From NCBI GenBank assembly GCA_963969365.1, contig OZ017748.1, positions 3,221,001 to 3,285,000 of the forward strand: DNA of 64,000 bases, given 5' to 3'. The DNA comes from Asterochloris sp. CNOR1. Its lineage: Eukaryota; Chlorophyta; Trebouxiophyceae; Trebouxiales; Trebouxiaceae. The notes beneath the pieces were generated by a model. That model had not been told where the DNA came from and searched no databases. It saw nothing but the letters and a program-made list of their open reading frames with translations. The position numbers and the translations under genes are program-made. Within the stretch, counting starts at the first letter, position 1. Every line of letters starts with the position of its first letter. Shown in pieces: positions 18,421-41,400 of the stretch.

Positions 18421-21400
18421 ATGGCAGCCCGTACAGACATCCATGCCTCAGGTATGCCAGACACTCCTGTGGAGGAGGTTACTGACCTTCTCAGGCAGGC
18501 GCTGCGGAGCAGCGATGCGGCGGAAGTGAAAAGCCTGGTGCAGCGAGCTCGTGACATCATTGGTGGCCTGGATCCCTACATGGAATCTGTGTCTAGCAAG
18601 CCTTCTCAGGTATGTTGGCAGTTGTCACCTGCATGCATGCTGTGGAGGTCACCGCCAGTAGCAATGATGCTGAACCTGCAGGTGGTGGACAGCCTGATTC
18701 GCCAGTCCGTGGAGCATGATTGGGCAAAGGCCTATGACGAGGTGTGGAAGGCAATCATGCTGGCAAACTTTGCATGTAACCAATCAGCAATGAAGACGGC
18801 CTGCTGTCTGCTCCTGATTGCAACCAGCGCTGGCTTGTGCATCCTTTGCATGGGCGCCGCTTTGTTTCCCACTCAAGTATGTCCCCGCTTCCTGCAGAAA
18901 CGGACGCAGTTCAAGCAGAAAAAGGAATGCTGTGCTGGTCGGCTGGAGGGATCCTTCCTGCGCTCCCTGGTGCGCCTCACAAAGGCCAAGACGGTGCTGG
19001 AGGTCGGCATGTTCACAGGAACGTCCAGCCTGGCCATGGCAGAGGCGCTGCCCACTGACGGCAAGGTGAACCCGGGCTGCAGGGTATCTGCCATCTCTCA
19101 CAGGTTGGTGTCAGCCTTGGCCCAGGGGCTGCTTCTCAATGGCCTGGGCTGCAGGCTGGTGTGCTGCAACAGCACCTGATATGCATATGCTTGGGCCCAC
19201 CTGCTCTTCTGGGCAGACAGTCTCCGGCGCACTGCATATAGCAGCTTATTGGTCTGCCATGACTCCAGAGACGTGTGTCTGGAGACCTTGGTGCATGGCA
19301 TCACCCTCAACAGCCCTTTATTGTCGCTCTAATCGCATCTGGCATAAGAGCCTCACGCTGCCCCTGGTTGCAGGTTTACTGCCTGGAGATTGAGCCCTAC
19401 ATGCTGCAGCTCGCACAGCCAGCCTTCCAGGAGGCCAACGTGCAGGACCAGATCGAAGTCCTGGTGAGCGTGGGGTGAACACAGAGGTTCCCCGGCTTGC
19501 TGGGCCCAGCATGGTTGATGGGGCTGCTGAAAAGCACCAGCTGTTGCTGAAGTCAGCAGTTGCCGCATGGTGCTGGGCAGGGCCTTGCTGTGCCTGCAGC
19601 TGGTTGGTCTCTTGCCTGCCTGCTGCACTTCTGTGCGCAAGCGTTGGGCAGAGACCACTTTGCCTGAAGCTAGTGGCTCTCTTGCCTGCCTGCAAACACT
19701 TTGGCAGCAGTGCAGGCCCTGTCTGACTGCATTCGGATCTGACCTCGCCCCTAGGGCTTGGCTGAACATGCCCAGCAGCAAGGCTGCATGTCAGCGGGTG
19801 GCTGCCCATGCTTACTGGCGATCTGACACGCTCCTCCTGCACAGCTGCAACTATCAAGCTGACAGGCTGCTGCCGCTGCAGGTGGGGCCAGCAAATGAGG
19901 GCATCTCGAAGCTTGCTGGGAGGGGTGTCAGGTTTGACATCGCATTCTTGGATGCTGACAAGACTGGCTACCTAGGATACTACAAGCAGCTGATGGACAG
20001 CAACTTGATTGTCCCAGGGGGCATCATCGTTGTCGACAATGCCCTGATGAAGGTGAGACATCGCTGTGCAGTGAAGAATGCTGCAACTGCCACATGCACC
20101 TGGCAACAGATGGACAGTGACCAGATGCTGCCTCTTGACAAGCTCAAGCCCCAGCTGCCGGCTGGCTGCTGCCTGCCAGTGCATTCAGTACATTTTGCGA
20201 TAAGGTCTTGTTGTGGGGCAACGCTTGTGCAGGGATGGGCGCAACATGCTGGTCAGGCCGCTCACCAGCCGTCCCCAGCTGCCTACAGGCTGAATGGCCG
20301 TCACAGTGCTGGCATCACTGCCCATAACAGTATCTGATGAGCAAACCTGATGAGCAGCAGCACTGTGTTGACAGTGCTGGCCCTCAGCACACCTGCGCGT
20401 ACAGCCGCCACCCCTGCCTGGCTCACAGCTGCTTGCCTGGGTGCGGCAGTGCAGGGCGCCGTCACTGGGGCCAGGCGGGACCTGCAGGCTGCCTGGTGAC
20501 TGACAGCCCTGTGGTCATCAAGCTGCTTGACCAAGAGACCTGTGGCCATCATGCTGCAGGGCAGGGTGTACTCGCCTGGGCCAGTCAAGGACGACATGGC
20601 GGAGGCCATCCGGGAGTTCAACCAGTTTGTGATCAACGACAGTCGGGTGGAGGTGGTGGCGCTGCCCTTCAGAGACGGTGTCAACATCGTGCAGCGCAGG
20701 TATGGCAGGCTGCAGCATGCTAGATTGTGTGACTCACCTGCAGAGGGCAGCCATACAACTTGGTTCCTGGCTTGAATGCATGTCAATGCTCCATATCTTG
20801 CTGCAGGCTGCCCCAGGGCGATGAGGTCATGACTGGGGCTGCCAGGAACTTGGTGCAGCAGCGCCTGAAGCTGAACAACAAGGTGGCTCTGGTGACAGGT
20901 GGGGCGATGGCCGCCAAGCCTGGCTGCCCGTCCTATGCTTCCCTGCAAATGCTAGCAGATTTACTGCAGTGCATGTGGCATCTTGGTGCCACGGAGGAGG
21001 CATTGAACATGCACCACATTTGTCCTGGCAGGACCAGCTTGCAGAAGCCAGTCTAGGCTATCTGTGAAGGACAGTGGCTGGGCAGCACCAGACCAAAGTG
21101 GCAGGCTTGGCGGTGCTTGACGCAGGCAAGACCCGCACCAATTGCTGCAGATGCCAGGCAGAGCATCGGCTAAGTGGTGTCACCCTAAAGCTCAAGACGC
21201 CATGCAAGCTTCACCTCCCAATGACGGCTGCAGGTGCGGGGCAGGGCATCGGCCGGGCATTTGCCCACGCCCTGGGAGAGGCTGGAGCCTCCGTGGCCAT
21301 CGTGGACGTCAACAAGGCCAAGGCAGACGAGGTGGCTCAGGAGCTGAACAGCAAGGGTGTGCGCAGCGTGTCGGTGGGGGCAGACATCACCAGAAAGGCA

Positions 21401-22987
21401 GACTGCCAAAGGTGAGCCCCTGTGGTGCGTGGCCAGCATGTCCGTCTGCCTCGACACCAAGGGCATGCGCCGCATGTGCAGGCCACAGCAGAAAGGCAGA
21501 CTGTCAGCAGAGAGGTCCTGTGTCGCTGTGCCAGCACGTCTGTTGGGCTCAAGAGCAAGGGCATGCGCAGCATCTGCAGGCCTGACTGGACAGGAAGACT
21601 TTCAGGGGTCTGGTCCCAGCTGGACATGACAGCATGGCCACATTGGGACTTGAGCTGCACCAGCTTGTCTCTGAAACATCTGATTGCCTGGGGCTGAGAT
21701 GGTCTCCAGTGTGCAGGTCCCTCGCACATCTGACGTGCGAGGCACAAGACTGCATCAGGTTGCATGGTCCTGTTGCACTCGACTGCAATAGTCTGTGTCC
21801 CTGCGTTGCAGGATGGTGCAGGAGGTGGTGAAGCAGCTCGGAGGGCTGCACATCGCCATCAATAACGCTGGCATCAACAAAAACGCTGCTGCAGAAGACA
21901 CCACTGAGGAGGACTGGGACATGACATTTAATGTCAACACCAAGGGGGTCTTCCTGTGCTGTCAGGTAGGCAAGTTGCAGTTTGTGTCATGCTCCTGTGC
22001 TGTGGGGTGCCCTGTGCAGTCAGGAGGCAACAAAATGCCACGGGTGCTTACATCAGCGGCATGGTCCTGTGCTGGTAAGCGGTCAGGAATGGCCAGCCCT
22101 TATCAGACCAGCCAACCTCTAAAGGGGCTCCATGCCCCACAGCTTGCGGGGTCGCCATAGCTCAACAAAATCCCAAAGCGGGGCTGAGGCATTGGCCAGA
22201 CCCACCCTGACCTTGGCTCCCTGGGCCACATCATGTTGCTGAGCCAGTGTCTTTGTCACCCTGATGGCTTTGGGCTAAAGCCTGCTCAAGCACACACCTC
22301 TGCAAGCATGTCCGCCTCTGCAAATTCCTCAGCCTGCGTCGCTTCTGCCGTGCAGGCTGAGGGCCAGTACATGCTGAAGCAGGGGTATGGCAAGATCATC
22401 AACACAGCCAGCATGGCCACTCTGCTGGTGCCCCACCCACAGAAGCAGATATCCTACAACGCCTCCAAGGCAGCCGTGGTCAAGATCACCCAGACCCTGG
22501 GCACCGAGTGGGCTGACAGGGGGCTCAATGTCAATTGTATCTCACCTGGCATTGTGAACACAGCCCTCATACAGGTCAGTCTGGGCTGACACTTTCCACA
22601 GCTGTCTGCAGTGCTCTTCCAGAAAGCCTGTGCAGACAGCCCCCAGAGTATGCTGGGCTGGCATTGCCTTCCTTTATGCAATGGGAGCAGAGCAGCGGGA
22701 GCATGTGCATAGCACTGCACATGCCAGTCCACCTGGAGCATCTGGCCTGCCTTTAACACGCCTGCACATGTCTGTGTAGCTGCCACCTCCCTCAAGGTGT
22801 CACATCCCTCATGCAGGAGTCCAAGGACCTTCAGCCACTGGTACATGAGTGGCTCACTCAGATCCCCAAGGGTCGCCTTGCTGAGGTCACTGACCTACAG
22901 ACAGCCGTCGTGTTCATGGCCTCTGATGCCTGCAACTACATGGTTGGCCACAACCTAGTCATTGATGGTGGCCAGTCTGTGTGGTAG
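18421..22987 (+). CDS. Fused MysB-like O-methyltransferase and short-chain dehydrogenase
   Basis: Eleven exons (18421-18609, 18682-18741, 18898-19065, 19374-19463, 19882-20052, 20560-20699, 20807-20898, 21234-21411, 21812-21965, 22356-22574, 22817-22987) sum to 1632 nt, or 543 residues. Residues 1-273 form a class I, metal-dependent (family 3) O-methyltransferase: AdoMet motif VLEVGMFTG at 116-124, metal-site FLDADK at 191-196 and DN at 221-222. The leader IIGGLDPYM and the block TKAKTVLEVGMFTG are typical of MysB, the desmethyl-4-deoxygadusol methyltransferase, more than of caffeoyl-CoA methyltransferases. Residues 290-543 are a complete SDR: TGAGQGIG at 303-310, NNAG at 380-383, catalytic Ser433, Tyr448 and Lys452. 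Asp328, at the end of strand beta-2, suggests NAD(H). The domains share exon 20807-20898, so the fusion is in the gene itself. With the cyclase at 25.3 kb, a gadusol or mycosporine role is inferred. Substrate is unproven. Confidence 0.88.
21351..21610 (+). repeat. Three-copy exon-edge array at the SDR exon 8 donor
   Basis: The true exon end (AACAGCAAGGGTGTGCGCAG to GGCAGACTGCCAAAGGTGAG, 21346-21417) is followed by two diverged copies. One starts near 21457 (CACCAAGGGCATGCGCCGCA, with AGAAAGGCAGACTGTCAGCA). The other starts near 21560 (GAGCAAGGGCATGCGCAGCA, with GACAGGAAGACTTTCAGG). Spacing is roughly 105 bases. Confidence 0.7.
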
Positions 22988-23149
22988 GCATGCCTCAGCA
23001 CATCTTCTGAATAGGCTCAGCTTCCCTTCTCCTGCCCATCAATCCAGTGACAGCCGTAGAGTGATCAACCATGTCCGGCGTGACTCCAGGGACCCCTTCT
23101 GCCCAATAATATAATGAATTCGATCATCATTTGCTTAGCGTTTAGATGC

Positions 23150-23872
23150 CTACAAGTGCTGCCCCAACGCTGCCTCTGCATTTGCCATGGCTTGCTTGGC
23201 TACTTGCAGCTCCTCATCAGCCCCTCCTGCTGTGAATTTAGACTGCAACCATTGAGGAGTGCATGGCAGGTGGCATGTGAAGCAGGGCTGCACACCTAGG
23301 CGATTCAGGCTTGCGTCAATAGGTCTCTCGGGTCTGTATCATGCTGTGAGTGCCAAGCGACTCACCAGAAAGACTTGCAGGTCTCCCACTGCAGACTCCA
23401 GACGCTGCCTGGTGTCAGGGACCATCATGGCTGCCTCAGCAAGAACATCTTCCTGCAGGACAGCAGTCTGCTCCTTGTCTAGACTGTGCAAAGCATGGCG
23501 CCCTGCACAACAAATACATGAGCATGATGCTCAACATTGGCAGCATTTGTATGTCTGCACAGGCAGAGTCAAGGGGCGCGCGCAAGTATCGACACCCGTG
23601 TGTGACAGGCAGGCAACAACAACAAGTCTGCTGGTGTGCTCCCAAGTTTGAAACATGCCTTGCTGCGCGTCAAGCAGCCTGCAACCCCTCAGCCAGGTCA
23701 GCCCACCTCTGCTCACCGCATGTTTCAAGTCGTGTGAGTCTGCACCAGAGGCCCTCAGCGTCTTTACTCTGACAGACTCTGCATCCTCTTCTCTGATGTA
23801 AACAGCAAGCTCCTTGGTCACGCGCTTCAGGCCAGCTGTCTTGATTTGCAGCTGGCGCTTGGCATCTGCCAT
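23150..23872 (-). CDS. TBCA: Tubulin-binding cofactor A
   Basis: Small helical chaperone that holds beta-tubulin during tubulin heterodimer assembly in the cytosol. Exon 1 (23872-23717) encodes MADAKRQLQIKTAGLKRV, TKELAVYIREEDAE and GADSHDLKHA. Exon 2 (23452 to about 23360) gives EDVLAEAAMMVPDTRQRLES then AVGDLQ. The last exon, ending at 23150, gives ADEELQVAKQAMANAEAAL. The QIKT-G-KR start and the MMxPDxxxRLE core are diagnostic of the family, and about 100 residues is normal. The donor that joins exon 2 to exon 3 is uncertain by a few bases. The gene lies antisense between the methyltransferase-SDR fusion and the cyclase, with 162 bases to the fusion's stop codon. Nothing suggests it shares their pathway. 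Confidence 0.88.
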
Positions 23873-25258
23873 GGTTTCAGGTCCCTCTTCTGCACCCCCG
23901 AGGTCAGCTGTGTGATCTCAGCAGCAATTCAATCAGTCCACTGTGAAGCTACTCAATTAAGGGTCCTCTGCAGCCATCATTTTTCTCAGCCAGACAATTC
24001 AATACCTGATCAGCACAGTGAGCTCTGATCTGATGTGATGTGGGCCTGGCCTTTCAGGGCCTCTCTGCATGCCACAATGCTTTGGCGGGGCTCCTCAACC
24101 GCCAATGATTGTTGACCGCCTTTGACCAGCTGCAGCCTTTACAAGCGTCCAGGCAACGGCAGAGTTTGCTGGTGATCCGTGACCAGATTGAACAATGTGG
24201 AGACATGTCTGCCCCCTGCCTCATGCTGCGGACACACTACAGTGCTGGTGTACTTGACTGTCAACGAGTCTGCCATGGCTGGCCATCAGAGCACCCATAC
24301 ACTGGATGCTGCACAAGCACGTTTCCCAATGTGGCGGCTCTGCGGCTGTGCTGACTGTGGCCTGCATTGGCTGTGGCTTGACGCAAGGAAGGCAGCAACA
24401 TAGCAGCTTCTAATTACAGCCTCTGACTGCAGCAACCAGACACCGTGACAGGTCCATCCCTGCTGACTGGAGGTGGTGCATGCCCTGCAAGTGCAGGCTG
24501 TTATTGCAGCTTGTACTGCAGCTCTGCCGAGGGTACTAGCTGTTGTGGCCAGATCCATTTGTGACATCAGACTGTTGCAGACCTCACGTGCTGGGCGCAG
24601 CATGATCAAAGTGCTGATACCAGTGAGACTTGATTGCAGCGCCTTGCAGTTGCCACCTGGGGTTTGGCCACATATGTAGGCTGCCTGCCTGCTTCCTGAG
24701 GCATGGCCACTGCCTGTTTGACTGTCACTGTGGCAGTGATGTTGTGTCTAAAGTCCTTTCAGCAAGCTGCTGGTGCCAGCAAGCCTGTTCCACGGCATGC
24801 TTGAGTTGCGGACGGGCAGTAAGCCACCAGGTCGGGTTTCGGCCACGACATCACCGATTCGGTTGCCATTGACCAGCTCCACATTGACGGCATCACCTGC
24901 AAAACACCGATCTGCCACCAGACAACTCTCAGACAGCCACACACAGCCTTTTCAGGATGCAGTTGCTCGGAGACAGACTGCAGGCACAGAAGCTTCTCTC
25001 CGCTTGCCCAAGCCGGAGCAGGAAAGCCATCACCCGCAGGTACGGAGGGGCCTCTTGCATGGCCTCATGGTTCTGCCTCGGGTTGTGGGAAAAATGCGCA
25101 CGCGCGTGCCGCATCTTAAGTCGTCCGCCCGGTGCAGGTGTGTTAAAGCGAAGGCTACCAAGAGCCTGCCAGAGGTTGACGGGCCTTCGAGGCCCAGGAA
25201 TGTGGCAGTGAAGGCAGCCGGTGTGGCACAGCGGGTGCCAACGGCCCAACCACCAGCC
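23873..25258. other. 1.4 kb gap between TBCA and the cyclase
   Basis: No family is recognised. It must contain the TBCA promoter (leftward) and the cyclase promoter (rightward). A minus-strand patch at about 24940-24750 reads like coding sequence (ADRCFAGDAVNVELVNGN, then RIGDVVAETRPGGLLPV) but has no clear partners. An unannotated small minus-strand gene, or an undetected 5' exon, cannot be excluded. Confidence 0.35.
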
Positions 25259-28200
25259 ATGGATCTCGGCAGCGGGGTGTGCGCCTCTGGCCTGAACGGC
25301 CTGTCAGCTGGGGGACTGGAAGGCTTGAAGTCGGTGAGCACAGATGCATGGGGATTTAGTCACCCCTAAAAATTCATCAGGCCCAGTTCGGCAATGCCCG
25401 CGCCTGATCGCACCTGCAATGGCATGTACACATCTTAGGCCTCCCGAGGCAACTTGTCGGCAGCCGATGTCGTGGCAAGGCGGTACTGTGGCCTTCATGC
25501 AGACTCACCAGCTTCCTGTTGGTGTGGAGCTTTGTGTGCCTGCATGTGCAGATTTGCAGTGTTGGATGGTTGCGCATGAACATGGGATCTCCCATTATGG
25601 ATATTGGTGTGCTGCAGGGCACGTTCCAGGTTGCAGCTTCACAGCCAGTCATGTATGCTGTGGAGGAGACTAGCAACCTGTTCCACATTGACAACAAGGT
25701 CAGTCTCGTCATTGCTGCTTGCATTGTTTTCGCCTGCTCTGGGCACATGCTTTCCCTGATTTGGCCAGCTTTGGCATGCTCAGTCTACTTCCAACATGTG
25801 TACAGATGGATGCCGTGTCAGGCTGGCGCTTTGTTGCCCACAGGCCTGCCTCTCACTGCTGCAGAGCTTGCTGCGTGAGCTTGTGCCTGACTCCTTCCCG
25901 GCCAGGCTGGGCCCTGACTGTGGCGCTCCTGGCACGACACAGCGCCGCTTTATCATCATCGATGAGGCGGTGTACGCTCTGTATGGGGAGCAGATGGATA
26001 AGGTGATTGCTGCCCACCTTAGCTGCACATCTGCCCGTGCAGGCCTCCAAATACTGATGGCAGCAGCAGAGATACAGCTTTGTCCTCGACATCATTCTAG
26101 ATCTGGCACAGCCCTCTGGGCAGAAAAACATTGACAACATCCTCAAGCTGTTCTCAATATGGTCTGTGCCCTGGAACCCAGCTGTTCACTGAAAGCTCCT
26201 GCTAGGCTGGACTTGTCTGTCCATGCAGCAATCTGGTGGCGCGTGTTTTCCTGCCCAGCATGCGCACTATGTGTCATGCGTGCTCACCAGCTTCCCCTGC
26301 TGTGCTGCAGTACATGCAGCACCATGGCGTGGATTATCAGGTGCTGCCCCTGCCCACAAACGAGCCCAACAAGAGCTTCGACCTCGTCTTCCAGGTTGCT
26401 GAAGAGCTGGAGAAGTTCAAAATCAACAGGTGGGCAACATCTGCCAAGAGTTTACAAGTGCTGTGCTTGCAGTATTCCTGCAGCTGTGTTTAGCACACTG
26501 AGTTAGGCGTCATGATTTCGACAGCACAGTGCCTGGCTGCTGGCCAAGCGTTGCACAAACTGTTTTGTTGGTGTTTGGCACAGTGTGGCCCACTGTTTGC
26601 ACAGTCACAGCAGCACCAACTGTTCTCCACCTGTCCCTCCCGGCACAGCATGTAGGGGTGGGCCCAGATACGGCTTTTCAGCTGAGCATTTCACACCACC
26701 TACATCGACCAAACTGCTGACCAGATCTGTGTTGTCTTTGACAGACGCAAGGAGCCCATCATTGCCATTGGTGGGGGTGTATGCCTGGATGTAGCCGGCC
26801 TGGCGGCCAACTTGTACCGCCGCAACACCCCCCTGATCAAGGTGCCCACCACCGTGATGGCCGCAGTGGATGCCAGCATTGGCATCAAGGTGAGCATATG
26901 CTGCCTGGCCGGTGCAGCCTGTAGATGCCATCGTGGGCAGACCAGAAAGGCCACAGCAAAGAGACATGCCTGCAGTGCATCAATTCCCCAAGTTGAGTGT
27001 TGTGTCTCACTCCTGGACCCACCTGCTGCAGACAGCTGTCAACTTCCATGGCCGCAAGAACAAGATGGGCACTTACTGCCCACCCCTGGCAGTGTTCATT
27101 GACAACGCCTTCCTGGCCTCCCTGGAGCAGCGCCACCTCAGCAATGGTTCGGCTGAGATCCTGAAGATGGCCTGCATCAAGGATGCAGCGCTGTTCGAGC
27201 TCCTGGAGGAGCACGCAGCTGAGCTGTTGCGTACCAACTTCCAGGTGGGTCAGAGGTACACACATGAAACATGGGCGCCAACTACCAGCCCAGCAGTGTC
27301 TGCATCCTACCCCTGACTTGCTGGCAGGGCCTTTCATCCTGCCCGTGATGTGGTGCCCTGCTCTGGCAAGCTGCTACTGCGACATGATTATTCAACTGCA
27401 GTGCTCAATGCTTGCATAGCTCCTGTGAGTGTGTGTCCCAGCCCCAAGTGCTTGATGCAGTCTTGTGGCCTGTAGTGGCGCCTTAGCCCCGTGTCTTGTC
27501 ACCGAACATGTTTTGTGGTCGATCTTCTGCCTGCCCTTGCCCGCAGAGCACGCCACCATAGCCTCGTGTCCTGTCACCGAACATGTGTTGTGGTCTTTCT
27601 TCTGCCTGCTGTTGCCTGCAGAGCATGCCGCCAGCATGGCATATGGACTGCAGCATGCCGGGCACCCCAGTGTATTTACCCTTGGCTGCATAGTCATCTT
27701 GCCTGGCTGGCTCACTTAGTGTGACCTTCTGCTCTTGATCCTCTTTTGCTGTCACCTGCAGAGCCCTGCAGCCAGCGTGGTGATGCGCCGCAGCATCCAG
27801 GGCATGCTGGAGGAGCTGGAGTACAACCTGTGGGAGCACATCCTGCATCGCCTGGTGGACTACGGGCACACCTTCTCCCCCGAGATTGAGATGGCAGCCC
27901 TGAACGGGGATGAGGCCATGTTGCTGCATGGCGAGGCAGTCAACATTGACATGGCCCTTACCACCCAGGTGCGCTTGGTACTGTGACCTTTTGGGTGTCT
28001 CTCTGCTACCTCAGCCAGCCTCCAAGCCGAATGGAGAGCTGCTAAGCCTCTGATCAGCAATGGCACTGCACTCACCCACCAAGGTGCACTTTGAGCTGTG
28101 GGCTGGTGCAGTGGAATATGTGGGTCAGTCCAGCCAGCTGGCACAACACCTGAACCTTGCGAATATGGCTCCACAGGCCCACAAAGAAGCTCTTTGACCC

Positions 28201-29165
28201 AGGCATGGGGAGGCTTGATATGGCCCTCACAGCTCAGCTGTGCACACAAGGGGGTTCCGTTGTACCTCTATACAGGCTGGTACACAGCCTCAAGGCACAG
28301 CTGCATCAGTTGTTTGGCATGCATGTCCACCACAGTGCTCTGGCAGCCACACCCAATCAGTCAGCGATGGGAGCCTAGTAGCAGCCTGCATATGCTGTGA
28401 GCAGCTGCAGATGGAAACTTACCACTAAGGTTTTGTACGTGTGCCTTGTATGTGCTGCTCCCTGGTTATCTGCTTTCTGTTCAGCGCTGTTGCCAGCTCA
28501 AACAGTTAGATGTGTCTGTCTGCCTTACACGTGGTCCTCTTTGCTTGCAGCTGGCATACCAGCGTGGCATGCTGACCGAAGATGAGCGTGACCGTGTCTT
28601 TAAAGTCATGACCGCCCTGGGCCTCAGGCTGTGGGATGATGTATGCACTGTCCCTGTGCTAATGAAGGTGAGTTCTCAAGAAGCTTGGTTTCAACATCGC
28701 CCTGGCTTGGTGCAGTGTGTTGCTGTGCAAAGCAGTGTCTGCTGACTTGCTGCACAGCCTGGCTGTGCCCTGTCTCTTGTGGCTTTTCCCTGCCCTTCTG
28801 GCTGTACAGTGGCATGCTTGTTTGTGCTTTCCCAGTGCCAGTGCTGCAGCAAGTTTTTGTTACCTGTTGTTGACAGCAAAGATGGCCCCTGTTTGCAGGG
28901 ACTGCGTGATACAACGCTGCAGCGCGACGGCCTACAGCGCATGCCGGTCATGTGTGGCATTGGCAACGCCACTTTTCTGAATGACATAAATGAGGCCGAG
29001 GTTGCGCAGGCTGCTTCCTTTGTGGCCAGGCTGCACAAGGAGCAGGCCCATGCCAGCAGGCCCACCCATGAGAGCCTCTCCATGGGCAACACAATCAGTC
29101 CTTTTGGGAAGTCCTTGCCTAAGTCAATTCAGCAGATCATAAACAAGGTCCCAGTAGAAGTCTAG
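25259..29165 (+). CDS. Sedoheptulose-7-phosphate cyclase (EEVS or DDGS type), DHQ-synthase superfamily
   Basis: Sugar-phosphate cyclase predicted to convert sedoheptulose 7-phosphate to 2-epi-5-epi-valiolone or desmethyl-4-deoxygadusol, using NAD and a divalent metal. Nine exons (25259-25333, 25618-25698, 25865-26002, 26311-26429, 26745-26889, 27032-27244, 27762-27968, 28551-28667, 28899-29165) sum to 1362 nt, or 453 residues. Landmarks: QRRFIIIDEAVYALYG; NAD-binding GGGVCLDVAG from about 147; LYRRNTPLIKVPTTV; DASIGIKTAVN; metal ligands Glu228 (SAEILKM), His293 (DYGHTFSPEIE) and His313 (LLHGEAV). FSPxxE replaces the FGHxIE of true dehydroquinate synthase and marks the sedoheptulose-phosphate branch. 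EEVS and DDGS cannot be told apart by eye. The fused oxidoreductase nearby favours EEVS, because that route needs an oxidation step. The start MDLGSGVCASG is the only ATG giving a clean exon, but an earlier exon is possible. Confidence 0.88.
27480..27785 (+). repeat. Repeated acceptor edge before cyclase exon 7
   Basis: The segment CTTGTCACCGAACATGTTTT, then TCTTCTGCCTGC, at about 27496-27540 recurs at 27570-27615 as CCTGTCACCGAACATGTGTT. Each ends in a splice-acceptor-like GCAGAGCAYGCC (27544, 27619). That edge resembles the true acceptor CTGCAGAGCCCTGCAGCCAG at 27757. There are two decayed copies plus the genuine edge. Confidence 0.65.
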
Positions 29166-30632: not shown

Positions 30633-32515
30633 ATGTCGAATGCAAGCAACAAACTAGCTGTGGTTATAGGAGCCAACAAAGGAGTTGGCTTGGCGGTGGG
30701 CTGATCTCCAGCTTGAGATAGAATCAGCTCCTTGCATTGCACAACCTGCAGTTAACTTATTGTATCGTGCAGGTGACTCTCCTGCTGAAGAAACAGGGCT
30801 ATATTGTTGTAGCATGCTGCCGCCAATCTACACCTGAGCTGGACGCAGCAGGTGTTCGCTTTGTTGTCACAGGTACATTGCTGCAGTCTACCACTGCAAT
30901 CTTGCAGAGAGTCTGGCAGTGCCACAGGGCCTTGGGTGCATTGCTGCAATTCATGCATTGCTGGCAGGTCATGCATGGCCACATAAAGCTATGAGACTGC
31001 AGTGCCTCTGGCAGCACTTGTCAGCCCTTCAACGGGAGGGCTGGCATGTGTGCAGGCATTGACGTCACAAAGGACAATGGCACAGCAGATCTTCAGGAAT
31101 TGCTGCCACCACAGCACATCGACCTCCTGGTCATTGCAGCTGGAGCTCAGCAGCTAGACCATGCCCAGAATGTCACTAGAAAGGGCATCCGAGAGCAGTT
31201 CGAGGTCAATGCCTTGGGCCCGCTGTTTGCAGTCCTGGAGCTGAGGTCCAGGCTTCAGAGTGGCAGCAAGGTGAGTGCAGGCTGCACCCACATATCAATA
31301 TGCTTGCATGTGCCTGGCCGGGTGGATCTTCGGGCAGTGAGGTCTGGGCACCCTCAGTAGATGAGCAGGTGTGTGCCTGGTGTACCTGCATGTGCAGCAA
31401 GGTGATGGGAGATTGCTGTGCATGTGCAGCAACATGGATATGGACTACACCTGTAAATGTGCAAGCAGGCAAGTGCCTGATGCAGATGCATGTGCAGCAG
31501 TTCGAGGGCAGACTACGCCTGCAGCAATGTGAGTGCAGACTGTGCCCTTGGGCGTGTGCCTGATGCAACTTTAGGCAGCAAGACCCAGCCAGACTGTGTC
31601 CAGCAAGATTCTCGTCACCAGGCTCGTGCTTGGAGCCTGGTGCACCCACATGTAGAGGAGCCCCTCTGGGCATATGCCTAAGGCACCTCCTTGCATCAAG
31701 ACCAAAGCAGAGTGCACCGGCAGGCACGTGCCTGGTTGACACACATGTGACGGGGCACAGATGGTTTACACCAGCTCTTGGCCCTGGATGCAGCACAACC
31801 AGGCATTGTCACCCATGTAGACACTTCAGTGTCAGGCCTCCCTCTGCCATTGCTTCAGGTGGCCCTCATTTCCAGCAGGATGGGATCTATCACACAGGCA
31901 GAGTTCACAGGAGGCAACCTGGTGAGGCTGTGACTGCCTTCTTGCGGGTCTGCACTGCCTCAGTGTCTCTCTCTAGAGTCCAATTGAGAAAACGGGTGGT
32001 GCAGCTGCAAGGCTGTCATCGCCTCTGCAAGCCTGCATTTCTCAAGCTGCCTCGCCCTGGCTTGCAGTTTGGGTACCGCATGGGGAAATGCGCTCTCAAC
32101 ATGGCAGGGGCAACGCTGGCGCTTGACCTGAAGCCAGATGGCATTCCCCTGGCGCTCATACACCCAGGCGTGGTGAGCTGACTGCAAAGAAGGAAAGCCT
32201 CACCTGTGCCAGCCTGCCAGTGCGATTGTGAGAGATGCAAATGCAGCTCTGGAAAAAGCTGCCCTGTATCCCTGGGCAGTAAAAACATGCTTGTCTGTTT
32301 GCACCAGAGGGGTGGCAAACCATGCAATGCAGGTGAACACTGCCATGCTGAGGAATCTGCGCAAAGCCAAAGGGCTGCCAGAGGACCAGTGGAGTGCTGG
32401 CTCGATTGAGCCCGAAAAGAGCGCGCAGGGCATCTTGGCCCTGATAAACAAGCTGGACCTCAGCAACTCTGGCTCATACTGGGCTGCCGACAGTGGCGAC
32501 CCAATTCCATGGTGA
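30633..32515 (+). CDS. Classical short-chain dehydrogenase/reductase (C-factor/sniffer-like)
   Basis: NAD(P)-dependent oxidoreductase of unknown substrate. Six exons (30633-30695, 30773-30872, 31056-31270, 31859-31921, 32068-32172, 32333-32515) sum to 729 nt, or 242 residues. Features: Rossmann motif VVIGANKGVGLAV close to the N-terminus, Arg after beta-2 (VVACCRQS, which often goes with NADP), LLVIAAGAQ in the NNAG position, FEVNALGPLFAVLEL, the catalytic serine in VALISSRMGSI, YRMGK as the YxxxK pair, and the IHPGVV-NTAM turn. All catalytic residues are intact. The small size and the SRMGSI block resemble C-factor/sniffer SDRs of bacteria and algae. It is the third gene from the cyclase on the same strand. 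A role in tailoring the same product is possible but unsupported. The long intron 31271-31858 contains exon-edge copies. Confidence 0.85.
31262..31560 (+). repeat. Copies of the SDR exon 3 donor edge and TGCATGTGCAGCA repeats
   Basis: The true donor GGCAGCAAGGTGAGTGCAGG (31262) recurs at about 31523 as TGCAGCAATGTGAGTGCAGA, both followed by CTG(C/T)(A/G)CCC. Between them TGCATGTGCAGCA occurs three times (31387, 31421, 31487), and an AGTGCCTGATGCA-type phrase also repeats. Confidence 0.55.
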
Positions 32516-32655
32516 GGAGTCCACGAATTAAGCTGCCCTGCCCATCTTGACACCAGATCAGCATGCAGCATGGTGATCGCGTCTGACAACAAACGAATAT
32601 CAATGACATTTCATAACATGAAGGTGCCGCACCAAAAACGTCCGTGTGAATGAAT

Positions 32656-35600
32656 TTAGTGATGTGAGTTGGAGGCAAGGCCGGCCATGCAGCAAGCAAA
32701 CATCAGGATGCAGCCCCCTACCCAGCCTCTGGCGCCAAGATGTTGTTCGCTGCTGTCAAACCCGCCTGCTGCAGAAGCCAACGCCGCAAACCCAATGGAG
32801 ATGAGGGGGTCCATTGCCAGGATGATCTGGCCATGGCTGGCACTGATCCTGGCTTGTGCTTCAATCTGGGTGATTTCACCCGTGGTCCAAGGACCGACAG
32901 CAGGCCATAGTAGCACCAACCAGAGAACTACATGCCCATAACCAGGCCACACTGCAGACGCCGGTTTGCCATGTGCAAGCTGACTGAGAATGTCCGCCAC
33001 CAGCCAAAGGGCAGAGAGGATCGCCATGACAGACAATTTGGCGGTGCCCAAGTGAATGGCCTTGAAGTTTGGGGCATGCTTGCTTTGCCGGACCATCACC
33101 ATGGACCAGAGGCCTGCTGCAAGGATAATGATGAGATCGCCTAGCAGTGCTAGCTGAGCTGGGCTGTGTTCTGAGTCTACATCAGCAGCTGCCTTGGCAG
33201 GATCTGTGGTCAGCAGGATGCCGCCCAGCAGGCCGACGATTGCGCCTGCCCACATCAGCCGCGGCACCTCCTCCCCAGCCAGAGTTGAAAGGATAGGGGT
33301 GAACACGATGGACGCCCGTACAAGAAAAGCGCCACGACTGGTTGTTGTAAAGGCAAAGCTGCAGGGCATGCATGCAAATAGACATCAGCCAATGTTTGAG
33401 GACTGTGCATAGGGCCACTTGCAAGCCAGAGGCAGACATGCAAGGCATGGGGCAGAAGAACACGAGGCCAATGATGCAGCTAATTGGGGCGAGGGCATGT
33501 CAGCATGTAAGCTGGGGGACATGAGACAAAAATGGATCCAGTGGGTGGCCACCGTGACAAGTGCATGGCTCTCACGGGGCAGACAACAAGAGCTGGGCAA
33601 CAGCTGCTTGCAAAACACAAGTTAGGCCTCACAGCTCTCCCAGCTGCCAGCTCACCCAACAATCATGATGGAGTTGGCCGCAAAGGCATAGCACCCCAGC
33701 TCCAGGCCTGCCAAGCGCACGTCCTTGGTGCTACAGCTCAGGTAGCCTGCCACGGCCTGCAGGAGCTTCCACTCTTTAGTGCAAGCAGTGGTCAGTGTAC
33801 TAGGCAGGTGACCTTGGTCTGTATGCAAGAAGGGCCTGGGCAGCACTGCACTAGATGTGTGGGAGTTGGATCTTCATGGGCGGCACTGGAAAGGGAGGAG
33901 AGCATAGGACCAGGAAAGCAGCAGTGATATAGCCATTGTAGATGGCAGCTGGCAGTCAGCAGCAGTGGTCTGGTGGGCAGGATAGCATGCAGGCACACTG
34001 CGCCGAGGCGCAGGCTGCAAGGTCTTTGAAAGCTCCCAGCGGCAGTCAAGTGAAGTGTTTGGGCGAGGCAGCAGCTTTCATTGACCTGCAGGGCCTGGGC
34101 CAGCCATCCCTCAGCTGGGCAGCCCCGCCAGCGCTGAGACAATGGCTGCAAAGAGCCATCAGGCAGACTCGCAGCGGCTCCAGCTGCCACGCCGGCCGGC
34201 ACTGGCGCGCTGAGGGCTGCTGCAGCGAACAGCGGCGACAGAGGGGATTCCTGCCCCTGAGCCGCTGCGTGCAGGGAAGGGGGCAGCTCTCCAGAAGACG
34301 CCACAATGTGCCGGGTGCCTTGGTGCAGCGGGCTGTAGCCATTCTGCTGGGGCCCAGTGCTGGCTTGGGACCAGGCTGTAGGGGACAGCTCCCCTACAAG
34401 CACACCAGGGGTGAGAACGAGCTTGCGGCTGCCCCCAACGCAGATGATGGGTATTCTGCAGGGGTACAGTGCTGGCTGGCAACCAGCAGGAGCCAGCTTC
34501 CCTGCAGACGCGGTGAGGTTACCGTTGGTGCCCGCACGGTTGAGGATGCCTTGGCGCCTGCCCCATCCTGGTCACAAGCCCGCACATCAGTGCAATTCCC
34601 ACTTGTATACCACTTGGATCAAGTAACCATGCACAATGCAAGTTTCTGCCACGATATGCAGCAAGACTGCGTCCTGACTGGGCTGCAGCACATGAACCAG
34701 CCAAACTCCCAGTGCCTGGCCTCCCATTGGCTGAGATTGCGACCTCTGCCAGCTCATCTGTGGACACATTCCCACTGCACCTCACAGACTGCGCCTGGGC
34801 TAGGCAGCCTCACCTGAATGAGCTAACTTGTCAGTGCTGGTTCGCTCAGCGGTCTCCAGCTTGATCAGGCGGAACTGGTACCTCTGCTGGTCACCAGACT
34901 CCAGCCCATCCTCTGGAGGCAAGGGCTGTTGTGCATGCTGGGTCAGCTGCAGCATCTCCGAGTCTGCATCCTGTGGTGTGCGGCGCCTACGGAGCATTGT
35001 GATGAGGCGCAGCCCCTGGCTGGAAGGCAGGAAGGGTGCAGTGAGAGGAGCAGCAACCAAGCTTTGATGGGGCCAAGCCTCTGGCTGGGTGGCAGAAAAA
35101 ACTGCTGTGGGTAAAGCAGCAACCAAGCTGTGAGGAGGCCACAGCCCCTGGCTGGGATGCAAATAAAAGTGTGCAGAGTGAAGCAGCACCAAGCTGTAAG
35201 GCCTCAGTCTGGCTGGGAGGCAGGCATGGGGCACGTCTCAAATGCCTGGATTTCGCGGTAGTGACATTGGTGCCAGCGTTGCAGCACAGGCGGGGCAAAG
35301 TGCACCTGCCCAACAGCACCATGCAGCACACGCGCAGCAGTGCGTTCTCCCAGACAGCAGCTACTCTAGATGGACCTGAAGTGCAGTGCCTGACAGCCTT
35401 TGCATGGGCTGTACCACAGCAGGAGTAGGTATCGCAGGCGCACCTGAGTGCCAGCAGAATAAAGGCTGCCAGCACTGTTTGTGCAGCGGCCAGCACGGCT
35501 GAGGAGGGGGGCCCAGGTGAGAGGTAGAGGAAGCGCAGGGCCAAGGGGTTTGAACCCCAGATGAGTGCCGTGACAACCATGAGCACCTGCCCTTCAATTT

Positions 35601-35724
35601 TCCGCCGGCGTGCTCTGTGAGGCTGCTGCGCTGCGCCCAGGTTGCTGCTGCTGCCCTGGCTGAGCTGTGAGGCTGGGTAAGGAATGCAGGCCTGCCCATC
35701 GGCAGGCAGCTCGCCTGCTGCCAT
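32656..35724 (-). CDS. Drug/metabolite transporter (EamA/DMT family) with long hydrophilic insertion
   Basis: Membrane transporter of small metabolites, substrate unknown. Exons 35724-35444, 34986-34814, 34393-34086, 33771-33656 and 33358-32656 sum to 1581 nt, or 526 residues. The N-terminal tail (about 45 residues, ending RARRRKIEGQ) precedes helix 1 (VLMVVTALIWGSNPLALRFL) and helix 2. Then comes an unusual polar stretch of roughly 160 residues, rich in Gln, Ser, Pro and Ala. The EamA core resumes with AGLELGCYAFAANSIMIVG, TTTSRGAFLVRASIVFTPIL, WAGAIVGLLGGILL, DLIIILAAGLWSMV, IILAMDPLISIGFAALA and GWVGGCILMFACCMAGL. SRGAFL followed by FTP is the family hallmark. The insertion sits exactly where two exons and a repeat-filled intron lie. 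The gene is convergent with the SDR and divergent from L-galactose dehydrogenase. Confidence 0.82.
35010..35235. repeat. Imperfect tandem repeat, about 65-base unit, 3.4 copies
   Basis: Copies start at about 35012, 35078, 35143 and 35205. Each has a CTCTGGCTGGG/CCCCTGGCTGG head and an AGCAGCAACCAAGCT(T/G)T-type tail. The last is partial. The array lies in the first intron of the DMT transporter, directly before an exon edge. Confidence 0.7.
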
Positions 35725-36080
35725 GACTGAGCGGGGAGGCTGATCACATCTAGCATGCAAGCGGGCTCTGTACAAGTGTTGCTGCAGGACCTACATGATG
35801 CATCAAAGCCTGCAGGAGAAGGTCTCAGCATCAGTACATCAGAGCCACAGCAAGCTCTTATTGCTGCTCAGCATCATGCTGGCCAGTCACATATACCCAG
35901 CATTGAAGGAACATGTTCAGCTCACCCCTGTGGCCTGAAAGCTCTAGATGGACGCCTGCCCAGACAACTTTCAGGCTGGACAGTGAGAGGGTTGGGCAAG
36001 GGTTTATTGCGTGGCAGCAAAAATCAGGCGGCAGGTGCGGCCACTTCAGCCACGCACCGGCTGCTCACCTAGATCTATAC
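35725..36080. promoter_or_regulatory. Divergent intergenic region, transporter / L-galactose dehydrogenase
   Basis: 356 bases between two divergent start codons. The frames here do not resemble known proteins. No core promoter motif is evident, so the assignment rests on orientation. Confidence 0.35.
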
Positions 36081-38327
36081 ATGACAGGAGAGCAGCTTTC
36101 CAACGGTCAAATGGCGGATCAGCGACTGCCCCGGCATGCATTTGGCAGCACTGGGGTGCAGTGCTCAGTGGTTGGCCTGGGATGCAGCCCCTTTGGCCAT
36201 GCATATGGGGTGAGTGGACTGCAGATGCCAACCACTGCTTCCAAACCACCTGCAATGTTGCTGGCCCGCATCTCAGCAGGTGCCGCCTTGCCCTGCAGAG
36301 CCCAAATGAGGATCAAGCAATTGCAGCTGTGCATCTAGCTGTCAAAAAGTATGGCCTCAACTTCTTTGATGTGGCCCCATTCTATGCCGGTGGCGATGCT
36401 GAGCGGGTGAGAATCTCACATCCACGTGCTGCATAGCTGCCACCTGGCAGCACCTGGGCTGCTTGGCAGCTCCATGCGGTGTGTCTTGTTCAGCTCCTGC
36501 CATTCCTGGCAGGCCTTGCCCAGAGGTCCACTGACAGCCCGTTGCTTGTGTGCTGCAGCTGCTGGGGCGGGCGCTCAAGGGGCTGCCCCGGGAGGACCTG
36601 ATTGTGTGCACCAAGGTGGGCAAGTATGTGCCCGGGGAGCCAGAGGACTTCAGCGCAGACAGGTGAGTGCCCCCCACCATCTGCAGCACCTGTGACACTG
36701 CAATCCCTTTGACATGTCATGAGGCTTGCATCGTCAACATGTGCACCCATGTGCGCACCCACACCAGCTCCCCCAGATCTGAAGTACTGTCTTGAGACTG
36801 TAATGGCAAGCACAAAATCGACATGGCAATTCCGAGCGCTGCTCAAAGCTCTACAGGCTCACATTGATGATGCTGTGCATGCAGGATTACGCGCAGTGTG
36901 CACGAATCCCTGGAACGCCTGCAGCTCAAGTACATTGACGTGATTCATTGCCACGACATCGAGTCAGCAAAGGACATGAAGCAGGTGGGGCAGCCAAGCT
37001 GAAAGGGCGGCATGTATGGGAATGTCAGCAAGCTGCGTGTCGTGCAGCAGCACATAATCAGCTGAACGCATGTAAGCATGCAGTTGCTGTTCTGCAGTGA
37101 GCAGCTGGCTGCTCAGTGCTGCCTTGCACTGCAGATTGTGACTGAGACAATCCCAGCCCTTCAGAAGCTAAGGGACCAGGGCCTTGTCAAGTTCATCGGC
37201 ATCACTGGCCTGCCCCTGGACATCTACACATACGTGCTTGACAGGTGAGCAGCTTGTGAGCAGCATTTGCGACGGGCACTGGAGCACAGAACACCACCAA
37301 TGTGGTGCCAACCTCAAGTACAACACGAGCCGTGCTTTGTACTGCACAGTCAAGCTTGTAAAGAGCTACCCTGAAGTGCCTGGAGCGATATCTGTCACTG
37401 GCATCATCCAGCTGAGCACAACAGCGATGCTTTGCATGCCCTTTCAGGGTTCCAGTGGGCTCCGTTGACTGCATCCTGTCCTACTGCCACCACAACCTGA
37501 GTGACAAGACCCTCCTGGGTCTGATGCCCTACCTGAAAGAGAAGAAGGTTGCTGTCATCAGCGCTTCCTTCTCATCCATGGGACTGCTGCGGAAGGAGGT
37601 GAGCGATTGATGTCTAGGTGTGGGCCTTAGCGTGCCTTCTTGCCCATAGGCCAGTGTGGTCAGCTGCCCCGAGGGAGTGGCTGCCTCGCACCTGCCATCA
37701 GTAGCTCCCTCAAGCAGTTGTACATCACGGCAGCTGTGCCACCTAGCTGTCAGACAGTCCCGATGTGACAGTCCTGGCTTGCCCTGTTGTCTTCCAGTAC
37801 ATGTGCCAGAGAACTGCTCGTGGCTGCAGGGACCCCCATCCTGGCATCCAGCTCCCAAGGAGATGCAGGAGGCTGCAAAGAAGGCAGCTGACCACTGCAC
37901 ACAGCGTGGCACAGATCTGGCAAAACTGGCAATCAAGGAATTTGTGAGGTGAGCTTCCTGCTCGGACTGCAGCTGTTTTCCACTGGAAGGATCCCTGGCT
38001 CTCTGGAGCGTTGCTCAGCTTGAGGAAGCTCTCCTTGCTAGGCTGAAGGCCCATGCAAGCATGTTCTGGCCTGCCGCTTGCCTTGTTGGAACCATCAGCT
38101 GCAATGTTCTGTCCTGCAGGAACCCTGACATTGCTGTGAATCTGATGGGGATGGTGACGCCAGAGGAGGTCGAGACTGATGTTGGGATCTCGCTGGAGGC
38201 TTTGGGATTGAAGCCAACCAAAGAGACAGCGTTGGAGGAGGCTGTTCTCAAAGATGTGCAGGGCATCCTGAAGCCTGTCATGAACATCACATGGAAGACA
38301 GGACGGCAGGACAACAGAACACCTTGA
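36081..38327 (+). CDS. L-galactose dehydrogenase (aldo/keto reductase), ascorbate synthesis
   Basis: Oxidises L-galactose to L-galactono-1,4-lactone with NAD, the penultimate step of the plant (Smirnoff-Wheeler) vitamin C pathway in the cytosol. Eight exons (36081-36209, 36299-36406, 36559-36662, 36885-36984, 37135-37244, 37448-37598, 37830-37948, 38120-38327) sum to 1029 nt, or 342 residues; the plant enzyme is about 320. Family blocks: VVGLGCSPFGHAYG, GLNFFDVAPFY (Asp67, Tyr72), LIVCTKVGKY (Lys98), SLERLQLKYIDVIHCHDIE (His135-His137), TIPALQKLRDQGLVKFIGIT, GLPLDIYTYVLDRVP, GPPSWHPAPKEM and ILKPVMNITW. The AKR tetrad Asp-Tyr-Lys-His is intact. Exon 7 is placed at 37830 because GPPSWHPA continues the family sequence in frame. 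The N-terminus is about ten residues longer than plant enzymes, and a second in-frame Met (MADQRLP) is a possible start. Confidence 0.93.
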
Positions 38328-38492
38328 TCTGAGCCTTAGTCTGAGCCTCTTCAATGAATCTGCAGCTGTGTCCGTGAATTCATCGCCAGCAGCAACAATA
38401 AACTCAATCAAGATTCGAGACCTAATGTTGCACACTTTCTTGCCAGCCAAGCTGGGGATCCATGGCGACCTGACTGAGGAAGCGGGGTACGC

Positions 38493-41400
38493 ATGAACGT
38501 GCTGGATCATGCCCGAGTGCACTCCAGCAACTCAGCCAGCACAAGTGGCAGATGTGAATCAGATCACAATCTGTTGGGCTGCAGCAAGGGCAAGAGGTGC
38601 CTGCTCATATCCCCACGTCATAGGAGGAGGCAACAGGGCACTAGCAAGCTTAGAAAGGGGGGAGCACATGGCACTTCGGTGCCTGTTTCAGCCATTGCAG
38701 GCCCCACAGCATGGGATGGCAGGTATGCTCCTGTGACCGCTTGATGTTGCCCAGAAGGCTGAGCACCATTCATCAGGCAAAGTTGCCACTGCAGGGAGGC
38801 AAGCATGCAGCAGGTACCATCACTGGCAGAGGTCTCAGATAGACAGGGCCCACTGGATGGAGCTTACCTGAGGGACCTCCTTTGGCAGCAAAGACGCCAC
38901 TGCGTCATTGCAGGTACGCGACACCTCAGCTTGAGCGCCACGTTTGCTCACGGGAGTGTATCACTCATTGCATGCACAGAGAAGCAGGACATCTCCCATG
39001 CCAAACCCTATTGCCAGCCTCCAGTGCAGCAGCAGCACATGTATCCCTCCAACTCTGCTGACACTGCTATTCGCCTGTAGGCTTTGCCCTGGTGGTATGC
39101 ACCAGCTGCAACCTGGCCTCCCCAGTTGTGACTGGCATCCTATTTGAGATCCTTGTGGGCAAGCAACCCATGTCACAGTAAGCGTCACGCAGTGCACCGG
39201 CTTTTGCTGACCTGTGGCCTTTTGAGACCATGTGCCTGGCTGCTCCACGGTGCTTGCCTGACAGCATGCTGGTGTTGACAATTGTCAAGCAGGTTGATGC
39301 AGATTCGCATGCCAATACTCTCATCGTCCCCCCGCACCTGCAGGTACCCCAAGTGGCTGGCGCTGTTTGCCGCTATGTACACCCTGGAACCCCTGCTCAC
39401 ACGGGTTTACATCAAGAACGCATGCGCAGCAGGAGAGAAGGTGCGGCAGCCTGGCTGCTGAGTGCACTGCCAACCCAGTGTCTGGCTCCCACCCGCAGCT
39501 GCTGCTGCCAGCACCATGTTTGCCCCTGCACAACACGCATGCAAACCCTGAGAGCCTGGCTGCAGCTTGCTCAACCCCGGGCATGCCTTGCTCTGCTCTG
39601 GCTCAGTTGCACCTTGCACCTCACCAGTGGCCCTGGTGGCCACGCCCTGCATCCTTGTGTGTATAAGTACCCCTGCTACTCTGCAGGGCCTTGCAGCACC
39701 TTTTTGGCCCTTTGAATGAACTTCACTGCTTCTCGTTGTGCCCTGCAGTGCCTTGCAGCACTGCGACTAGAGCTTTTCAGAACCCTTCTTCTCCAGAAGA
39801 TCGAGTTTTTTGACCGCCACTCCACCTCAGACCTGACCTCCCTGCTCTCAGTGGAGCTAGATACGCTCCGCAATTTTGTATTCAGCAATGTTTCACGTGA
39901 CCGAGGGCCCCGGGCAGTCCTGGAGTGTATAGGGGCTGGTGAGGCTTCATAGGCAGCGCGTTGCCTGCTGCCTGGTGGCACAAGCCAGATTCTCATTCCG
40001 CAGCATTGCATTGTGGGGCTACAGCGCAGCCTTATGCCATTGACATGACATCTTGCCTCTCAGGGTGATGGAGGTGCATATCACCCAGAGCAATGGCATG
40101 TTGAACCAGTGACTACGTCTGGCATACCCTTGGCAGTGATGGCAGCTCATGCATGAAGCACTGCCCTGTAGTGTCTGTATATTTGCCAGCGTTGCCAGGC
40201 TGCAGTTCTGGTGCTGTTTGCGCTCTCGTGGCGCCTGGGCCCAGTGCTGGCGATGGTCATTATCGCAACAGGGTGCACAGCAGCCCTGTACAAGCAGCAG
40301 ACCAAGGCAGTGGAGAAAGCTGCCAGCACAGCGCTGTCGAGGATGGTGGGTATTGCCAGCCAGGCCTTCAGCTCCATCAGGACTGTCAGGTGGGGCAAAT
40401 TGCACGTCTCTTGCGTGCTGGACTACTAACGTACTTTTTGCACCAACTACCATCGTACTTTCTGGACCCTGGGGCTTTGAGCAGGGTGCCAGCACAGTGG
40501 CTGCGTCCTGCATGGTGCCAATTGTACAGGCACATGCCAGCGACTTCAGAGTTGTAAAGAGCCCTCCTGTGCTTTTGAGACAAGCTGCTGAGCTGTTGCA
40601 ATTGCCGTCCGCACAAAACAGTGTGCAGCAGGACACATGTCACTGTTTTTGTGGTGTTTGTGCAGGTCCTTTGCTGGGGAGGCCCTGGAGAGGGAGCGCT
40701 TTGCCTCGCATGTCAGCGAGTCTTATCAGGCTGGCATGTCTTTTGCGGGTGCCAAAGCCAATCTGGAAAGCCTCAACAGGCACGCTGCACAGCCTCGATG
40801 CGCCATGCATTGCTGCACCATGTGCCCACCTGCTGGCTGTGCCCCAGATCACTGTCGGCTTGAGCACCCCGCCAACAATCACTCTGCAGTTTACTTCACT
40901 GGACAGGCCAGAAGCTCTGCCCATGCCGCATTCCTGCCGGTGCACATCGTCTCACAAAGGAGGCGTCAGGCGGCACTGGGCAGTTGGCACCTCGGCATGC
41001 TGGCACTGTGTGCGCTGGGGGCAGTTTGCCCGCATGGCTGCTGCTCTCTGGCTGATCCAACAAGCCGTGGCTGTGGTCCCTGCAGGGGCGCAGTGCACCT
41101 CAGCCTCCTGGCACTGTATGCACTGGGGGGCTTCCTTGTCAGCCAGGGGCTGATGCCGATCCGGATCCTCCTGTCAGCCATCGGCTTCACCTTCAGCTTG
41201 GTCTTCGCCACCCAGGGCCTGGTGCAGACGCTGTCCGATGTGCGGCGGGTCAGTGGCTCTCTGGACAGGTGGGGGTTGGCTTTTGAAGACTCATGCTTGC
41301 CCAAGTCTCCCGTCTGCCCTCAAGCTGACGCAAGCTCAACAAGGTGGGATCCTGCCACGGCGAAACCACCTCCTCACCAGACTGCTGCCTCAGCCTCAGC

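Follow-up and report, generated by a model that had tools for sequence, protein, structure and literature searches.

The fish genes for EEVS and MT-Ox suffice for gadusol production in yeast and in vitro, and zebrafish MT-Ox alone converts 2-epi-5-epi-valiolone (EEV) to gadusol in vitro when supplied with S-adenosylmethionine (SAM) and NAD+ (Osborn 2015, PMC4426668). The same study reported that a predicted EEVS gene adjoins MT-Ox in Coccomyxa subellipsoidea and in Aureococcus anophagefferens. A neighbourhood of four genes, encoding an EEVS-like cyclase, MT-Ox, a MysC-like ATP-grasp protein and a methyltransferase, was later described in Klebsormidium nitens, Chromochloris zofingiensis and C. 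subellipsoidea, with a mycosporine-like amino acid (MAA) of gadusol core proposed as its product; the discussion of that paper speaks of ‘at least four’ genomes (Foflonker and Blaby-Haas, 2020; PMC7826186). Here, we analysed a window of 64,000 nucleotides (the whole stretch under study, C3:3221001-3285000) from the nuclear genome of Asterochloris sp. CNOR1, a green alga with an assembly of 56.4 Mb in 21 contigs. The window carries an MT-Ox-like fusion gene and a gene for an EEVS-like sedoheptulose-7-phosphate cyclase, and a MysC-like ATP-grasp gene and a methyltransferase gene lie together on another contig, C2. We consider it likely that the window pair makes up the core half of a mycosporine pathway of the green-algal gadusol type, which the C2 pair would complete to an amino-acid-conjugated product. 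A linked cyclase and MT-Ox pair is already known in green algae from the work of 2015 and 2020, so that the novelty implied for it by a first-pass annotation of the window does not stand (Osborn 2015; PMC7826186).

The two window genes and the gene between them are arranged as follows, in window positions, with exon ends picked by hand through homology and without transcript support:

18421-22987, plus strand: MT-Ox-like gene, ATG at 18421, stop codon ending at 22987; 11 exons, 543 amino acids
18421-18609, 18682-18741, 18898-19065, 19374-19463, 19882-20052 and 20560-20699, plus strand: exons 1-6 of the MT-Ox-like gene
20807-20898, 21234-21411, 21812-21965, 22356-22574 and 22817-22987, plus strand: exons 7-11 of the MT-Ox-like gene
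23150-23872, minus strand: gene for tubulin-binding cofactor A (TBCA; PF02970, E 1e-20), three exons by hand
23150-23242, 23366-23502 and 23707-23872, minus strand: TBCA exons
24957-29165, plus strand: cyclase gene, ATG at 24957, stop codon ending at 29165; 10 exons, 528 amino acids
24957-25039, 25138-25333, 25618-25698, 25844-26002 and 26311-26429, plus strand: cyclase exons 1-5
26745-26889, 27032-27244, 27762-27968, 28551-28667 and 28899-29165, plus strand: cyclase exons 6-10

As the first-pass annotation had claimed, a complete methyltransferase-SDR (short-chain dehydrogenase/reductase) fusion and a complete cyclase lie on the same strand with antisense TBCA, a bystander, between them. The distance from the MT-Ox stop codon to the cyclase ATG is 1,969 bp rather than the 2.3 kb it had given. 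All introns of both genes are of the GT-AG type (10 of 10 and 9 of 9), and the GC content of the window is 54-61% in 4-kb blocks. The gene models thus confirm that both genes are real, intact and intron-rich and, as far as their sequence can tell, functional-looking. In an earlier model of the fusion (546 amino acids), exon 2 was followed by a GC donor; this was replaced by a GT donor 9 bases earlier, preferred because it fits the lengths of the orthologues. The Pfam, homologue and NCBIfam searches with the fusion used the 546-residue model, and the tree and identities the 543-residue one.

Full-length homology supports the assignment of the predicted fusion to the MT-Ox type, with an N-terminal SAM methyltransferase and a C-terminal NAD oxidoreductase:

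18421-20699, plus strand: MysB-like N-terminal methyltransferase part (Methyltransf_3, PF01596; E 9e-45)
20807-22987, plus strand: C-terminal SDR domain (PF13561/PF00106; PF13561 E 5e-61)

Motifs that we take to mark the SAM site and the SDR fold were found by scanning in both halves: VLEVGMFTG at residue 116 of the methyltransferase part, and TGAGQGIG, NNAG and YNASK in the SDR domain. End to end, the protein is 55% identical to zebrafish MT-Ox, as befits the type that had been proposed for it, 57% to a chytrid fusion and 76% to a Trebouxia fusion, with homologue matches down to E 5e-284; its first half is 36% identical to MysB over 274 columns. A tree of 19 rows groups it with proteins of Trebouxia and Symbiochloris and with a metagenomic protein (support 98/94). 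The methyltransferase part has a strong match in the genome at the window locus only. A weak relative lies on C5 (3343146-3344100, minus strand; E 1.3e-6), a single stretch with an internal TGA and 36-40% identity to the N-terminal half of MT-Ox.

The cyclase has the Pfam domains DHQ_synthase and DHQS_C. Its best solved match is ValA, a bacterial EEVS (4p53, E 3e-100), followed by a 5tpr chain named 3-dehydroquinate synthase, which we take to be the DDGS of Anabaena. Matches as strong as this one to ValA and those of the fusion to its relatives lie well outside what chance would give. In a tree of 42 rows, including 10 DDGS and three dehydroquinate synthases (DHQS), the window protein groups with four Trebouxia rows, Myrmecia, Symbiochloris and a metagenomic protein (100/99), and DDGS and DHQS each form a group of their own (100/100 each). 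On both tree and residues, we reject an assignment as DHQS or DDGS in favour of an EEVS-like sedoheptulose-7-phosphate cyclase, in line with the type first suggested; the placement among dehydroquinate synthases that the first-pass annotation had named as its refutation did not occur. We read no branching order from this tree within the EEVS-like groups, of which ValA is one, and so claim no precise kinship of the window protein with ValA or with other algae. Vertebrate EEVS is absent among the best 120 of the 2,749 cyclase homologues. The EEVS-like protein P0088 of Apatococcus lobatus sides with chytrid proteins (98/96) and not with the other green algae, which hints at a separate origin. The label Coccomyxa_sub of the EukProt entries gene7119 and gene7124 was dropped, since these group with Tetradesmus.

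The active site was surveyed in 122 aligned proteins, namely the window protein, ValA and the best 120 of the 2,749 relatives. Residue numbers and fingerprint roles in ValA are our assumption; at five sites the numbers map onto 4p53 with the same offset, 6. The metal ligands Glu, His and His are conserved in all 122 proteins, as is Asp at the site of ValA Asp281, where a smaller alignment has Ala in all 10 DDGS and two DHQS have Asn. The window protein shares these residues with ValA and differs from it at His360, presumably one of the two fingerprint sites of ValA-type EEVS. His is present there in 85 of the 122 proteins (ValA and 84 relatives) and replaced in 37 (the window protein and 36 relatives). 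Of these 36, 31 are the best matches (green algae where named, otherwise unnamed sequences), four are from chytrids and one is from Apatococcus; no named green-algal or chytrid cyclase in the alignment has the His. Because of its Gln at this position, we call the window cyclase EEVS-like and not EEVS.

28920-28922, plus strand: codon CAG of Gln448, aligned at the ValA His360 site
24957-25288, plus strand: N-terminal extension of the cyclase, 78 amino acids over two exons with 14 Lys/Arg and 4 Asp/Glu, ahead of a GLNGL motif common to the relatives

From its composition, the extension could possibly be a plastid transit peptide, and a plastid location would suit a Calvin-cycle substrate. The idea is a weak one, because the corresponding extensions of the relatives differ widely in length and charge.

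The first-pass annotation had seen no ATP-grasp ligase and had suggested from this that the product may be unconjugated gadusol. None was indeed found in the window: in a search of the whole genome up to E 1, the MysC of Nostoc parmelioides (locus L005) hit a single gene only, which lies on C2 and was matched in five stretches. However, this ligase-like gene lies beside a PF00891 methyltransferase gene, so that at the level of the genome the absence does not hold, and a gadusol-only product on the ground of a missing ligase was rejected. Both C2 models were made by hand, with one intron in each given a GC donor:

C2:2742773-2746103, minus strand: MysC-like ATP-grasp gene, 580 amino acids
C2:2746368-2748825, plus strand: PF00891 methyltransferase gene, 380 amino acids

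The two genes stand head to head with their start codons 264 bp apart, and possibly share a promoter. The ATP-grasp protein has a weak ATP-grasp_3 match (27.2 bits, cut-off 23.2). It matches all 46 cyanobacterial or actinobacterial mys loci compared (L005-L050), with 32-37% identity over more than 350 columns in 45 of them. A search for its homologues returned 37 proteins and no named alga, a weak negative, as its poorly conserved N-terminus probably hampered the search, and algal MysC-like ATP-grasp proteins have been reported (PMC7826186). We liken the C2 genes to those published algal genes by kind and not by orthology. The ATP-grasp protein had no match in the PDB up to E 0.01. Among the NCBIfam models listed for the cyclase, the fusion (best 25 of 240) and the ATP-grasp protein, none is named EEVS, MT-Ox or MysC.

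The C2 methyltransferase matches PF00891 with 74.4 bits (cut-off 22.3). Homologues occur in at least three of the 46 mys loci, eight of which are shorter than 12.9 kb; in the cyanobacterial loci L042 and L045 the homologue lies directly 3' of the mysC-like open reading frame. The three solved matches displayed have an HDW motif, whose His we take to be the catalytic His of PF00891 O-methyltransferases; at this place the C2 protein reads SAF. Judged by this alignment, it is without the catalytic His; the L042 and L045 proteins read SAW at the site, and the L039 copy is fragmentary. Exons of a PfkB-family sugar kinase lie directly downstream of the ATP-grasp gene (C2:2738773-2741656, minus strand), perhaps of relevance if the kinase acts on a C7 sugar. 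Some 14 kb away from the methyltransferase gene is a retroelement that has a reverse transcriptase domain (RVT_1; C2:2728519-2732196, plus strand).

The pathway that we infer would begin with conversion of sedoheptulose 7-phosphate to EEV, or a very close cyclitol, by the cyclase. The fusion would oxidize EEV with NAD+ and O-methylate the enol to yield gadusol, to which the ATP-grasp ligase would join an amino acid, and the C2 methyltransferase would modify the conjugate. The product expected at the end is a mono-substituted mycosporine that absorbs UV, has a gadusol core and chemically resembles klebsormidin or prasiolin. Klebsormidin B is an N-methylserine conjugate of the gadusol core (PMC7118736) and prasiolin a glutamate conjugate (PMC5947255); the green-algal products with structures in these two papers are gadusol cores joined to a single amino acid. 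A mono-substituted product also fits the lack of any match to PF07478 (Ddl-type ligase) in the genome, a weak negative from a six-frame search that ignored introns. Our results support the first-pass annotation in placing the pair in a green-algal nuclear genome and in proposing a core route of gadusol type.

Compared with the green-algal neighbourhood (PMC7826186), all four gene kinds are present, but the set is split: one pair lies on C3, with antisense TBCA between its members, and the other, unlinked to it, on C2. The vertebrate gadusol pathway (PMC4426668) shares the linked cyclase and the full-length MT-Ox fusion, whereas the alga has ATP-grasp and methyltransferase genes besides. With the mysABC clusters of cyanobacteria and actinobacteria the alga has in common a MysB-like methyltransferase domain, a MysC-like ligase and, in the few loci named above, a homologue of the C2 methyltransferase. 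Unlike in those clusters, its cyclase is EEVS-like and not DDGS, and its SDR is fused to the methyltransferase.

Several observations weigh against this pathway. The ATP-grasp protein scores 267 bits with the NCBIfam model NF005315, under the cut-off of 406 bits that the L005 MysC passes with 583 bits. In its tree it lies on a long branch and is not placed inside MysC: it groups with P0241 (100/100), the tree has long branches, and the MysC rows do not form one clade. The replacement of ValA His360 by Gln448 touches the cyclase itself. Moreover, Table 1 of PMC5947255 records no detection of prasiolin for Trebouxia arboricola and Myrmecia bisecta, although EEVS homologues from Trebouxia species and from M. 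bisecta are among the matches listed. The pathway could end at free gadusol, as in fish, with the C2 genes serving another pathway; two enzymes suffice for this, and the C2 pair is on a different contig from the window pair. We nevertheless regard this as unlikely, as all four gene kinds of the published neighbourhood are present and the two outside the window adjoin each other, an arrangement mirrored by the mysC-methyltransferase order of the cyanobacterial loci. In addition, the green-algal 324-nm compounds with structures in PMC7118736 and PMC5947255 are amino-acid conjugates. The survey may have overlooked a product that is N-methylated or induced by UV, or the pathway may lead to another compound.

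The change at His360 also allows a cyclase that is not a true EEVS and makes another cyclitol stereoisomer or product for use by the fusion. The distribution of the His, kept in ValA and most of the listed relatives and never seen in the named green-algal or chytrid proteins, speaks for such a shift, as does the Thr that all 10 DDGS carry at this site in the smaller alignment. The retention of Asp281 throughout the survey argues against it, and we hold it to be quite improbable. That the cyclase is a diverged dehydroquinate synthase with neighbours paired by chance is very hard to sustain. The best NCBIfam model is indeed aroB, but its 208.6 bits fall below the cut-off of 305. Against this reading stand the fully supported separation in the tree, the Asp where two DHQS have Asn, the probable linkage to MT-Ox in five other organisms (see below), and a separate DHQS-like gene on C6, which with the window cyclase makes up the only two PF01761 loci in the whole genome. 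We retain the pathway to an amino-acid-conjugated, gadusol-core mycosporine as the likely reading.

Its last step may be an N-methylation. Klebsormidin B bears an N-methyl group and algasporine-glycine is described as having one (PMC13312787), and on this ground we propose that the His-less C2 enzyme acts on nitrogen. The idea is weakened by prasiolin, which as named in PMC5947255 has no N-methyl group, and by PF00891 relatives with other activities, including the hydroxylase RdmB. More broadly, one could suppose that green algae including lichen photobionts use a His-less EEVS-like cyclase, MT-Ox, a MysC-like ligase and a PF00891 N-methyltransferase to make an N-methylated, gadusol-core mycosporine from co-regulated but unlinked gene pairs. 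This is a tentative view, more doubtful than probable; were it true, the N-methyl group would be of the kind found in klebsormidin B and the product made in the photobiont.

Linkage of cyclase and fusion appears to extend beyond this genome. Among the matches listed, the two proteins are encoded on contigs of equal size in all five named organisms that could be compared (Trebouxia sp. C0006, Elliptochloris bilobata, Symbiochloris irregularis, Coccomyxa viridis and the chytrid Fimicolochytrium jonesii), which suggests that they are linked there. In F. jonesii (P0033 and P0146, EEVS-like and MT-Ox) the pair may thus be linked in a chytrid fungus too; its cyclase has Gly at the ValA His360 site. 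One figure legend in PMC7826186 lists genes as ‘present but not clustered’, and unlinked sets in other species may thus be on record already; neither ‘active site’ nor ‘residue’ appears in the main text of that paper. The literature searched, mostly without subscription papers, gave no account of the split in this genome, of the algal His360 change or of the His-less methyltransferase, any of which may be in print.

Farther 3' of the cyclase, window positions 31022-44059 hold an SDR-like exon, exons of a DMT-like transporter (minus strand), exons like those of an aldo-keto reductase, and an ABC transporter (ABC_tran). The SDR and aldo-keto reductase peptides score under the Pfam cut-offs, the DMT-like label was assigned by eye, and exon peptides of the DMT-like and MDR-like genes had no match in the Pfam search.

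New here are the split four-gene set of this genome, the two residue-level oddities and, likely, the lichen-photobiont setting. The finding extends a sunscreen route that is a hybrid of those of fish and cyanobacteria to a genome like that of a lichen photobiont, and it shows that the four-gene set can persist while split. Four defined proteins are now at hand for the question of what such algae make, to be set against a survey that found prasiolin in neither of two related algae. Both the altered residue of the cyclase and the missing His of the methyltransferase are definite oddities whose meaning is testable.

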